From the NCBI GenBank assembly GCA_947473045.1, contig CANJCO010000018.1, positions 1-64,000 on the forward strand: a stretch of DNA of 64,000 nt. The letters run 5' to 3'. The position numbers and the translations under genes were made by a program. Positions 29,343 to 32,733 of the stretch are shown here, piece by piece. Every line of letters begins with the position of its first letter. Positions within the stretch are counted from its first letter, which is position 1. The notes beneath the pieces are model-generated. The model was not told where the DNA came from. It did no database searches and worked only from the letters and a program-made list of their open reading frames with translations. Source of the stretch: Myxococcales bacterium. Lineage in GTDB: Bacteria > Myxococcota_A > Polyangia > Polyangiales > Polyangiaceae.

Positions 29343-29600
29343 CTATCTCCCGAGCTTCTTCGCGAGCTCGCCGGAGCGATCGAGCGCGTGGAGCTCGTCG
29401 GAACCCCCGACGGGCTCGCCTTTGATGAACACCTGCGGAACGGTGCGCTTTCCCGTGGTCTCGACGAGCCAGGCACGCTTGGCCGGGTCGGCGCTGATGT
29501 CGACCTCGTCGTAGGCGATGCCGCGCTTGTCGAGCAGCGACTTGGCGCGCGTGCAGTAGGGGCAGTAATCGGTAGTGTAGACGACGACGTCAGCGTTCAT
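29343..29600 (-). CDS. grxC: glutaredoxin (GrxC-type)
   Basis: 85 residues, full length for a dithiol glutaredoxin. The active site is C13-P-Y-C16; TVPQVFIKG (cis-Pro loop) and GGSDEL (glutathione-binding end) are present. It reduces protein disulfides and mixed glutathione disulfides in the cytoplasm. The ATG at 29600 is preferred over the in-frame start 36 bp upstream because the beta-strand DVVVYTT begins right after it. It is divergent from clpB with only 56 bp between starts, so the promoters overlap. The pairing of a redox protein and a chaperone suggests joint stress control (inference). Confidence 0.95.
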   Translation of the reverse strand: MNADVVVYTTDYCPYCTRAKSLLDKRGIAYDEVDISADPAKRAWLVETTGKRTVPQVFIKGEPVGGSDELHALDRSGELAKKLGR

Positions 29601-29656
29601 GGCGCGTGATCGTGCGGCTTCGGCAGCGTTTGGCAAGTGCTAGTATCGCGATCCCC

Positions 29657-32245
29657 ATGCCGGCCGAGCAAACCATCCACCTTGAAAAGTATTCGCCCGA
29701 AGCGCGGGCCCTCGTCGCGAGCGCCCAGTCGCTGGCCGACGAGCGAAAGCACGCTCAAGTCGAGCCGGTGCACCTGCTCGCGCGCGCGCTCGACCGCGAT
29801 CGCGGGTCGGCCGACGTGTTTCGAAAGGCCGGTGCCGAGCCCGCAGACGTCGCCGTCGAGGCCGAGGCAGCGCTCGGGCGCATCGCGAAATCGAGCGGAG
29901 CTCTCGCCTATTTGTCGAACGCGATGCTCGATTTGCTCGCGCGGGCTGAAAAGGAGGCCGCAGGAGGCGCGGTCGGCGTCGAGCAGCTGCTCAACGCGCT
30001 CTCGCAGGAAATCCGCGGGTCAGCGGCGATCGTGCTCCAGGCGTTCGCGCTGGGTCCAGGCTCGCTCAGGCCGCACATGTCTGCGCTGCGCAACGCGACG
30101 CGCGAAGTCGCCGCGGCGTCCACCACGGCGGCAGGCCAGGCGTCGCCGTTCGTGCGCGACCTCATCGCGCGCAGCAAAGACGGCACGTACATCGGTCGCG
30201 AAGTCGAGGTGCGACGGCTACAGCAGATTCTCGAGCGTCGCCAAAAAAACCACCCGCTGCTCGTGGGCGAAGCGGGCGTCGGAAAGCAGTCGATCATCGG
30301 CGCGCTCGCGAGCCAAATCGCGGCGCGCGAAGTGCCCGACAACCTCGCCGACATGGCCATCGTCGAGCTCGAGATCGGCTCTCTCGTCGCGGGCGCCAAG
30401 CTCCGCGGTGAGGTCGAGGAGCGTCTCAAGCAAGCGCTCGCGCAGCTCAAATCAGCGCCCGGCGGCCGCGAGACGATATTGTACATCAACGGCATCGAGT
30501 CGCTGTTCGGGCAGGGCTCCGTCGGCAGCGGCGTCGGCGATCTGCTGCGGCCCATGCTCGCGCGGGGCGACGTGCGCATGCTCGCGACGACGTCACCCGA
30601 AGGGCTTCGAAAGCTCCAGGAGAAAGACGCGGGACTGCTGCGTCACTTCACCATTCTCACGATAGATCCGCCCAGCGCCGACCTCGCAATTGAAATCTTG
30701 CGCGGCATCGCGACCCGCTACGAAGAGCACCACCACGTGCGCATCGGCGATCCGGCGATCGTCGCATCGGTGCGGCTCGCCAAACGCTACATTCAAGACC
30801 GCGCCCTGCCCGACAGCGCGGTCGACCTGCTCGACGAGGCGGCGGCGCGCAAGCGCGTCGAGATCGACGGCGTGCCTGCTGCGGTCGACACCGCGATCCG
30901 GCGGCTGTCGTCGCTCAAAGCGCAGCGCGCCTCGGTCACCGGCGACGACGACGCGATGAGCCGAAAGACCCGCGAGCGCATCGACGCGGAGATCGCGGCG
31001 CTCGCGCCGAAGGTCAGCGACATGCGCGCGAAGATGGACGCGCAACGCAGCCTGTCGCGCGCACTTTCAGCCGCGCGCGCTGCGCTGTCAGAGGTGCAAA
31101 AAAACATCGATATCGCCCGCGAAAAAAAGGATTTTGCCCGCCTCGGGGAGCTCGAGCACAAGGCGCTGCCCGACGCGACCGCGCTGCTCGAAAAATCTTC
31201 CGCCGCGTTCTCGACCGCCGATCTCGCCGAGCAGAACAACATCGTCGGCGAGCAGGACGTGGCCACGGTACTCGGCGACTGGACCGGCATCCCCGTGGCG
31301 AAGATGCTCGAGAGCGAGGCCGAGAAGCTGCTCAAGATGGAGGAGCGCCTGGGCAAACGCGTCGTCGGTCAGAACGAAGCCGTGCGCGCCGTTTCGAGAG
31401 CGGTTCGCAGAGGGCGCGTGGGCCTGCGCGACCCCGGAAAGCCCATCGGCAGCTTCCTTTTTCTGGGTCCGAGCGGGGTGGGCAAGACAGAGCTCGCCAA
31501 GGCGCTCGCCGAGTTTTTGTTCGACGATGAGCAGTCGCTCACGCGGCTCGACATGAGCGAGTTCATGGAAAAACACATGGCCCAGCGCCTCGTCGGCGCG
31601 CCGCCCGGATACGTCGACAGCGAGGAAGGCGGGTTTCTCACCGAAGCCGTCCGAAGGAAACCCTACAGCGTGCTGCTGTTCGACGAGGTCGAAAAGGCCC
31701 ACGCCGACGTGTTCAACTTGATGCTGCAGGTGCTCGACGACGGCCGCCTCACCGACGGACGCGGCAGGCTCGCTGACTTTTCGAACACGGTCGTCATCAT
31801 GACGAGCAACATCGGAAGCCAGCGAATTCTCGACGCCGACATCAAGATGTTCGACACCGAAGAAGGGTGCGAGGCGATGCGCGAGGTGCTGCGCGATGAG
31901 CTCAAGACGTTCCTGCGTCCCGAGTTTCTCAATCGCATCGACGACGTCGTCGTGTTTCGGCCGCTCACCAAGCGCGACCTGCGCGGCATCGTCGACATTC
32001 AGCTCAAGCGGCTCGGCAAGCTCGTGGCCGATCGCGAGCTTTCACTCGAGCTGAGCGAGGCCGCCAAGATGGCGCTCGTCGACATGTCCTACGAGCCCGG
32101 CTTCGGGGCCCGTCCGCTGAAGCGATCCATTTTGAAGAAGCTCCAGGACCCGCTCGCCGAGGAGATCCTCGCGGGCGGCTACGCGGCGGGCGCCGTCGTA
32201 AAGGTCGACGTGAGCGGCGAGACGTTCGTGTTCTCGAAGGGATGA
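29657..32245 (+). CDS. clpB: ClpB-type AAA+ disaggregase with degenerate first ATPase domain
   Basis: 862 residues with full ClpB layout: N-domain, NBD1, coiled-coil M-domain (about 400-510) and NBD2. NBD2 is intact: GPSGVGKTEL, LLFDEVEKA and pore loop GAPPGYV. NBD1 is not. Its Walker A reads GEAGVGKQS (Gln211 for Thr). The Walker B acidic pair of E. coli ClpB (D278-E279) is Asn278-Gly279 in ILYINGIE. The pore-loop Tyr (GAKYRGE in ClpB) is Leu249, and the second arginine of the LERRF finger is His. NBD1 should bind or hydrolyse ATP poorly, so this is probably a specialised paralogue with another ClpB elsewhere (inference). The ATG at 29657 fits the family N-terminus. Confidence 0.93.
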   Translation: MPAEQTIHLEKYSPEARALVASAQSLADERKHAQVEPVHLLARALDRDRGSADVFRKAGAEPADVAVEAEAALGRIAKSSGALAYLSNAMLDLLARAEKEAAGGAVGVEQLLNALSQEIRGSAAIVLQAFALGPGSLRPHMSALRNATREVAAASTTAAGQASPFVRDLIARSKDGTYIGREVEVRRLQQILERRQKNHPLLVGEAGVGKQSIIGALASQIAAREVPDNLADMAIVELEIGSLVAGAKLRGEVEERLKQALAQLKSAPGGRETILYINGIESLFGQGSVGSGVGDLLRPMLARGDVRMLATTSPEGLRKLQEKDAGLLRHFTILTIDPPSADLAIEILRGIATRYEEHHHVRIGDPAIVASVRLAKRYIQDRALPDSAVDLLDEAAARKRVEIDGVPAAVDTAIRRLSSLKAQRASVTGDDDAMSRKTRERIDAEIAALAPKVSDMRAKMDAQRSLSRALSAARAALSEVQKNIDIAREKKDFARLGELEHKALPDATALLEKSSAAFSTADLAEQNNIVGEQDVATVLGDWTGIPVAKMLESEAEKLLKMEERLGKRVVGQNEAVRAVSRAVRRGRVGLRDPGKPIGSFLFLGPSGVGKTELAKALAEFLFDDEQSLTRLDMSEFMEKHMAQRLVGAPPGYVDSEEGGFLTEAVRRKPYSVLLFDEVEKAHADVFNLMLQVLDDGRLTDGRGRLADFSNTVVIMTSNIGSQRILDADIKMFDTEEGCEAMREVLRDELKTFLRPEFLNRIDDVVVFRPLTKRDLRGIVDIQLKRLGKLVADRELSLELSEAAKMALVDMSYEPGFGARPLKRSILKKLQDPLAEEILAGGYAAGAVVKVDVSGETFVFSKG

Positions 32246-32733
32246 CGACCATGAGACCCGCCAGCGCCCTGATCGAGGCCCTTGGGCTCGCGCCGCATCC
32301 CGAGGGCGGATTTTTTCGCGAACTCTACCGCGATCCGGCAACCGCCCCGCACCCCGCGAGCGGCGAGCCGCGATCATGTGTAACTTGCATCTATTTTCTG
32401 CTCGAGCGGGGAACCTTTTCGGCACTGCACAGGGTCGCTCAGACTGAAATCTGGCACCACCTCGACGGCGGCCCGCTCGAAATCGCGACCCTGTCCGACG
32501 CTGGCGCGGCTGCGAGAGTGACGCTCGGCAAGCACATCGAAGCCGCAGAGGTGCTTCAGTACGTCGTGCCCGCCGGGGTCTGGCAGGCGGCGGCCCCGAC
32601 GGCCGACTGGGCGCTTGTGGGCTGCACGGTCGCCCCAGGCTTCGATTTTGCCGACTTCGAGATGCCCGGCCGGGCTGAGCTGCTCGCCTTGTTCCCGCGC
32701 GAGGCGGCCCTGATCGAGCAATTTACCCGCTGA
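32242..32733 (+). CDS. DUF985 cupin-fold protein
   Basis: 163 residues; the ATG overlaps the clpB stop by 4 bp (ATGA), so translation is coupled. Family markers: HPEGGFFRELYRDP, GTFSALHRVAQTEIWHHLDG, GVWQAA and LVGCTVAPGFDFADFEM. It is a small RmlC-like cupin; relatives are suspected sugar-modifying or metal-binding enzymes, but the function is not established. The His residues in ALHRV and EIWHHLDG could form a metal site. Coupling to the unusual ClpB is notable but unexplained. Confidence 0.88.
   Translation: MTTMRPASALIEALGLAPHPEGGFFRELYRDPATAPHPASGEPRSCVTCIYFLLERGTFSALHRVAQTEIWHHLDGGPLEIATLSDAGAAARVTLGKHIEAAEVLQYVVPAGVWQAAAPTADWALVGCTVAPGFDFADFEMPGRAELLALFPREAALIEQFTR

Follow-up and report, generated by a model that had tools for sequence, protein, structure and literature searches.

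Is a ClpB-like protein whose first ATPase ring has lost its catalytic residues the product of a decaying gene, or a machine that works in a different way from ClpB? This question is raised by a gene of a Myxococcales bacterium (Polyangiaceae) found in the window, i.e., the whole stretch of 64,000 nucleotides analyzed here. The original prediction, made from the sequence of the window, was that several essential positions of the first nucleotide-binding domain (NBD1) had been lost at the same time, and that the protein had adapted to a new role, as a single-ring motor, a regulator of another ClpB or a dedicated unfoldase. The evidence presented below indicates that the gene is not broken and that it probably encodes an unfolding machine with one motor.

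The clpB-like gene and its product

The host genome is 5.15 Mb in 138 contigs. The 862-codon frame of the clpB-like gene is unbroken, as had been predicted and as a reading of 29657–32245 bore out, and the product aligns with ClpB over its full length. An alternative GTG start at 29606 would give an ORF of 879 aa. However, the ATG at 29657 fits the orthologues better, since several of them have just a few open codons before this ATG. The Clp_N, AAA_lid_9, AAA_2 and ClpB_D2-small domains all scored above their cut-offs, as in the Hsp100/Clp class I superfamily, and the M-domain, the coiled coil that in ClpB is inserted where NBD1 ends, was found both in the full-length alignment and as helices in the AlphaFold model. 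The AAA+ fold of NBD1 is retained in this model (pLDDT mostly 60–90), which served for fold confirmation only, its domain orientation being unreliable (pTM 0.56). The coordinates of all features are listed in Table 1.

Table 1. Position of the clpB-like gene in the window, with its domains, motifs and adjacent genes.
Feature	Position	Strand	Description
Glutaredoxin 3 gene	29343..29600	-	85 aa, dithiol CPYC; above the glutaredoxin 3 equivalog cut-off
clpB-like gene	29657..32245	+	862 aa; Hsp100 paralogue with degenerate NBD1
Clp_N-type N-terminal domain	29657..30106	+	Residues 1-150; Pfam Clp_N match weak yet above cut-off; helical in AlphaFold model
NBD1, large and small subdomains	30149..30850	+	Residues 165-398; putative pseudo-ATPase by sequence (domain match, alignment, AlphaFold model)
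NBD1 Walker A, GEAGVGKQS	30266..30292	+	Lys210 kept, Thr to Gln211
NBD1 pore loop 1, GAKLRGE	30392..30412	+	Tyr to Leu249
NBD1 Walker B, TILYINGIES	30473..30502	+	Asp-Glu to Asn278-Gly279
NBD1 Arg-finger segment, DAGLLRHF	30626..30649	+	R331 equivalent kept, R332 equivalent to His330
M-domain coiled coil	30863..31231	+	Residues 403-525; present; long helices 433-489 and 493-520 in AlphaFold model
M-domain motif, GELEHKALP	31145..31171	+	Tyr (E. coli Y503) to His501, at 31157
NBD2 large subdomain	31289..31951	+	Residues 545-765; catalytic motifs intact (motif reading)
NBD2 Walker A	31466..31492	+	Intact
NBD2 pore loop, APPGYVD	31598..31618	+	Canonical APPGYVG; Tyr kept, next Gly to Asp; clade-diagnostic
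NBD2 Walker B	31673..31702	+	Intact
NBD2 Arg finger	31919..31942	+	Intact
ClpB_D2-small domain	31964..32206	+	C-terminal; domain match
Cupin_5 (DUF985) gene	32242-32733	+	Downstream

The motif residues were read directly and then aligned to those of the T. thermophilus and E. coli ClpB. All four of the changes originally reported in NBD1 (Walker A Thr, Walker B Asp-Glu, pore-loop Tyr and one arginine finger) were confirmed in this way. The protein does not have the two catalytically complete AAA rings of a ClpB, NBD2 being complete and NBD1 carrying Asn-Gly at Walker B and having lost one of the arginine fingers. Nor are both of its pore loops aromatic, as they are in ClpB (Y251 and Y653): pore loop 1 has Leu, and the Tyr is kept in pore loop 2. 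NBD2 and the M-domain had been described as normal; this holds for the catalytic motifs of NBD2, but the pore loop is GYVD and not GYVG, and the M-domain Tyr has been replaced by His.

A congeneric genome (locus L008) shares the Gln, Asn-Gly and Leu of the window protein but has Arg-Arg at the finger, so that only His330 is private to the window genome. This private residue is the one feature that would suit a sequencing or assembly artefact. As an explanation of the locus an artefact is hardly credible, given the intact frame, the identical residues in L008 and the clade-wide pattern described below, and it is refuted for all sites except His330.

A degenerate first ring conserved across the order

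When 59 relatives were searched, most genomes of the same family yielded an orthologue with a high score, and the orthologues found in the order were weaker. A profile built on the degenerate NBD1 gave matches of at least 370 bits in 117 of the 183 genomes of the order, which is a lower bound because some divergent members score below 370 bits. No family member was seen in some genomes of the order. In the sample of ca. 240 genomes from the rest of the phylum, none reached 370 bits with this profile, the best match (363 bits) being at the level of canonical ClpB. A scan of named genomes with an NBD1 profile retained only ClpBs of canonical appearance, its patterns being motifs universal to Hsp100. 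In the full-length tree the family is one clade (SH-aLRT 100). A tree of NBD2 only, from which the diagnostic column had been removed, again grouped the same members into a clade, and the Asp of pore loop 2 required just one change. Shared decay of NBD1 therefore does not account for the clade. By all appearances this is a conserved order-wide family, derived from ClpB, with a degenerate NBD1.

We compared 111 members picked by the Asp of pore loop 2 (totals are about 110 where there are gaps, and the numbers vary with the loci retrieved and ignore phylogeny). The NBD1 sites altered in the window protein proved to be altered as a class in the orthologues. Pore loop 1 was non-aromatic in 110/110 scored members (Leu in 108, Val in 1 and Ala in 1), and the Walker B Asp was present in 14 and the catalytic Glu in 15/110 (lost in 86%), with both Asp-Glu in only 8/110. 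The Walker A Lys was kept in 96/110 (87%), being Arg in 14, and the Thr was found in 51. Of the two arginine fingers, R331 was kept in 104/110 (95%) and R332 in 74. In NBD2, the Walker A Lys/Thr and Walker B Asp/Glu were intact in 111/111 members and the arginine finger in 110/110, with a pore loop GY[VAK]D in all of them vs. GYVG in ClpB. The position of the M-domain Tyr (E. coli Y503) was occupied by His in 71, Phe in 17 and Tyr in 1. Ten residues were fixed in the clade and absent from canonical ClpB, seven of them in NBD2, including around the pore loop. As a reference, 116 other Hsp100 sequences, mostly canonical ClpB, nearly always had the standard residues, the exceptions being two truncated clade members and the locus L270.

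The latter (G284:C669) is a ClpB from another class of the phylum that has Leu in place of the pore loop 1 Tyr, with intact Walker B and pore loop 2. The full-length tree places it as the sister of the clade, whereas the NBD2-only tree implies that the aromatic was lost twice; given this disagreement it was set aside as a secure intermediate, and it could be either an independent loss or an early intermediate. A different kind of variation was seen in the orthologue L050 (G023:C649), where nearly the whole M-domain coiled coil has been lost.

The simultaneous loss of essential positions that had been proposed does not agree with this distribution. At Walker A the Thr varies freely within the family and it is the Lys that is essential, the His of the arginine finger is private, and the Walker B Glu changed approximately six times on the tree, vs. 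a single change in pore loop 2. Besides, the members of one family (f6) keep Asp-Glu together with a pore loop 1 that is already Leu. The repeated changes of the Glu and the state of f6 indicate that the losses were stepwise, the pore-loop changes coming first and the presumed loss of NBD1 hydrolysis later and repeatedly.

Selection and constraint in the two rings

The dN/dS of NBD1 was ca. 0–0.1 in close pairs with unsaturated dS. Between the window protein and its nearest relatives, which are more distant, the values for the NBD1 large subdomain were 0.21 (L008) and 0.33 (L009). These are not the values of a domain in free decay. Purifying selection acts on the gene, in agreement with the original view that this was not a random pseudogene, and a pseudogene was rejected on the basis of these values and the agreement with L008.

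For a matched comparison we used 12 genomes that have both genes and the same genome pairs for each protein. In family f1 the mean identity of the NBD1 large subdomain was 63% in the paralogue vs. 85% in canonical ClpB (paralogue higher in 0/28 pairs), and that of the NBD2 large subdomain was 86% vs. 79% (paralogue higher in 28/28 pairs); as the pairs share genomes and are not independent, it is the direction that counts and not a p-value. Constraint has moved from NBD1 to NBD2, the inverse of what is found for canonical ClpB in the same genomes.

The lower conservation of NBD1, the free variation of the Walker A Thr and the Walker B residues, and the genomes of the order that have no member are what might be expected under relaxed selection after duplication, with NBD1 drifting and the protein heading for loss. 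We consider this very unlikely. The gene has been retained in at least 117 genomes as one fully supported clade, dN/dS is low in close pairs, the Leu of pore loop 1 is nearly invariant and hence not random, and NBD2 exceeds the conservation of its canonical counterpart in every pair.

Coexistence with canonical ClpB

A canonical clpB is present elsewhere in the same genome. Its product, encoded on contig C27 (L037), has every motif intact and scores 1330.3 bits against the ClpB equivalog (TIGR03346, cut-off 1232.1), whereas the window protein, with 880.8 bits, stays below. This makes the window protein an additional Hsp100 and not the ClpB of this cell. There is also a third ClpB-like protein (L038, G000:C26:39500–43800), with intact motifs and 1104 bits vs. 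the cut-off of 1232.

Canonical ClpB was detected in nearly all genomes of the order. Not even clear fragments of it were found in three fairly complete genomes, G008 (97%), G077 (99%) and G024 (92%), that carry the paralogue (loci L043, L265 and L019, respectively), assembly gaps being possible. Four other candidates for this situation (G003, G075, G140 and G056) were dropped, as they have ClpB fragments at contig ends.

One of the roles originally suggested was that of a regulator of another ClpB. As a regulatory subunit, the protein would enter mixed hexamers with canonical ClpB, offering its arginine fingers to the neighbors and tuning ClpB through a weaker grip and less hydrolysis in the NBD1 ring. 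The nearly universal presence of ClpB in the order is consistent with this, as is the conservation of R331, a residue that acts in trans on the ATP of the neighbor, in proteins whose own catalytic Glu is mostly gone. However, we find it rather unlikely. The paralogue occurs in the three genomes where no canonical ClpB was detected, the most diverged domain is NBD1, precisely the ring required for the stability of the ClpB hexamer, and the clpB-like and canonical clpB genes are unlinked.

Neighboring genes

The glutaredoxin 3 gene is located directly upstream and is divergent from the clpB-like gene, with 56 bp between them that would form a common promoter region. It is not the sole copy, as five further glutaredoxin-domain matches were found in the genome. 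The same divergent arrangement was found in 46 distinct genomes. Among the family f1 loci with at least 600 bp of upstream sequence, 20/28 had a divergent glutaredoxin within 350 bp, vs. 0/22 canonical clpB loci and 0/12 clpB-like members of other families. The clustering of the neighborhoods of orthologue loci revealed no gene conserved throughout, only in subsets, the short glutaredoxin being masked in this analysis by antisense shadow ORFs. On the downstream side, the Cupin_5 gene shares 4 bases with the clpB-like gene at the stop codon of the latter and was not found as a conserved neighbor of the orthologues.

Two observations made by eye can be added. Just before the start of the clpB-like gene many orthologues have a TGnTA-like element (in the window, 29630–29656: TGCTAGTATCGC), which suggests an extended −10 with a leaderless transcript. 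About 3.4–7 kb downstream of the clpB-like gene, several relatives (L167, L168, L170, L172 and similar loci) have genes resembling a His-Xaa-Ser system (HxsD/HxsB-like radical SAM).

The glutaredoxin linkage enters into two readings of the function. One is a one-motor Hsp100 with a pseudo-ATPase first ring that would partner glutaredoxin in the rescue of thiol-damaged proteins, beside a standard ClpB; we put this forward as a tentative possibility. The other is a substrate-specific remodeller similar to ClpV, in which NBD1 would be a repurposed binding platform and NBD2 would work on one dedicated partner. The wide changes in NBD1, the constraint shifted to NBD2 and the clade-fixed residues near its pore loop and elsewhere in this domain would fit such a remodeller, and so would the conserved linkage with glutaredoxin. 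However, there is no linked conserved substrate gene save glutaredoxin, and that in one family only, and the score against the VI_ClpV1 model is far under the cut-off (622.9 vs. 884.95 bits). We consider the remodeller distinctly unlikely.

A possible one-motor mechanism

Among the roles that had been suggested, the single-ring motor fits best. We lean, with modest confidence, towards the view that the members of this order-wide family are ClpB-derived Hsp100 machines with one motor, i.e., unfoldases driven by NBD2 with NBD1 as a scaffold that binds ATP and does not hydrolyze it. The protein would form a homohexamer. Its NBD1 would use the Walker A Lys and the first arginine finger to bind ATP; binding without hydrolysis fits because both residues are kept in most members and the catalytic Glu is mostly gone. 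This domain would act as an assembly and gating ring, devoid of a gripping aromatic pore loop, while NBD2 would hydrolyze ATP and thread the substrate by the Tyr of its GYVD pore loop. Lacking the Tyr that in E. coli helps to hold the repressed state, the M-domain would leave the motor more readily active. Given the glutaredoxin gene conserved in divergent orientation, the machine might operate under thiol or oxidative stress.

AAA2 acts as the principal motor of E. coli ClpB, where the pore loop 1 mutant Y251A has almost wild-type disaggregation once the M-domain is derepressed, and the AAA1 defects E279A/R331A are partly compensated by M-domain derepression (PMC6593972). Stabilization of the ClpB hexamer needs nucleotide binding at NBD1 (PMC5540906). 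Y503D is labelled as a hyperactive mutant in PDB entry 4d2x, from which the effect of a His at this position is extrapolated. This family naturally combines an intact NBD2 with an NBD1 predicted to bind and not to hydrolyze ATP, a first ring devoid of aromatic grip and a changed M-domain Tyr, from which we infer a single-motor Hsp100.

Some data argue against the one-motor reading. A few members keep the Glu or Asp-Glu, and NBD1 hydrolysis is possible in some lineages; ATP binding by NBD1 is doubtful in the 14 members with Arg at the Walker A Lys. In addition, AAA1 Walker B mutations strongly reduce disaggregation by E. coli ClpB unless it is derepressed (PMC6593972), and in published work the same strong loss is found in ClpG, again unless derepressed, so that a dead NBD1 should cost activity.

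The contribution of the first ring in ClpB and Hsp104 has so far been studied mainly by engineered mutants. Here nature appears to have run the experiment: the Walker B Glu, the pore loop 1 Tyr and the M-domain Tyr have been altered over long evolution in a protein under selection. As intermediates are still extant (f6, with Asp-Glu), there is a sequence set for each step, and the family yields testable predictions on the division of labor between the rings.

Comparison with known systems

We found no description of this family among the open-access papers that we searched. The window protein shares with ClpB (E. coli, T. thermophilus, M. tuberculosis) the order N-NBD1-M-NBD2-C, similarity from end to end (41% identity to the structure 1qvr by structural alignment) and an intact NBD2. 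It differs in the NBD1 Walker B, pore loop 1, the Gly of pore loop 2 and the M-domain Tyr, and its family is a separate clade with inverted constraint and scores under the equivalog cut-off. The NBD2 segment MTSNIGS...RPEF has no [LIV]G[FL] motif like the IGF/IGL ClpP-binding loop of the ClpA/ClpC type. ClpV (TssH) is likewise an Hsp100 remodeller related to ClpB. Human CLPB/Skd3, an Hsp100-type disaggregase, works with just one AAA ring, which corresponds to NBD2; it has ankyrin repeats and no NBD1 at all, whereas the window protein keeps NBD1 as a folded domain in the model.

The ClpG/ClpK disaggregases are also Hsp100 paralogues found beside ClpB, and of the two pore loops of ClpG that of AAA2 is essential and that of AAA1 can be partly dispensed with (PMC8024975). 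However, ClpG carries an additional N1 domain and both of its AAA rings are active, unlike the window protein, which scored 542.5 and 555.2 bits against the ClpG/ClpK models (cut-off 1900).

The closest analogy to the proposed arrangement, and it is an analogy only, is found in the type II AAA+ complex Pex1/Pex6, a eukaryotic heterohexamer with different N-domains and no ClpB-type M-domain. There D1 is ATP-bound yet catalytically dead, with a Walker B-like Asn in Pex1, and D2 drives translocation (PMC10518020). A dead, ATP-bound first ring paired with a second-ring motor, as proposed here, would thus be workable, Pex1/Pex6 being a solved precedent.
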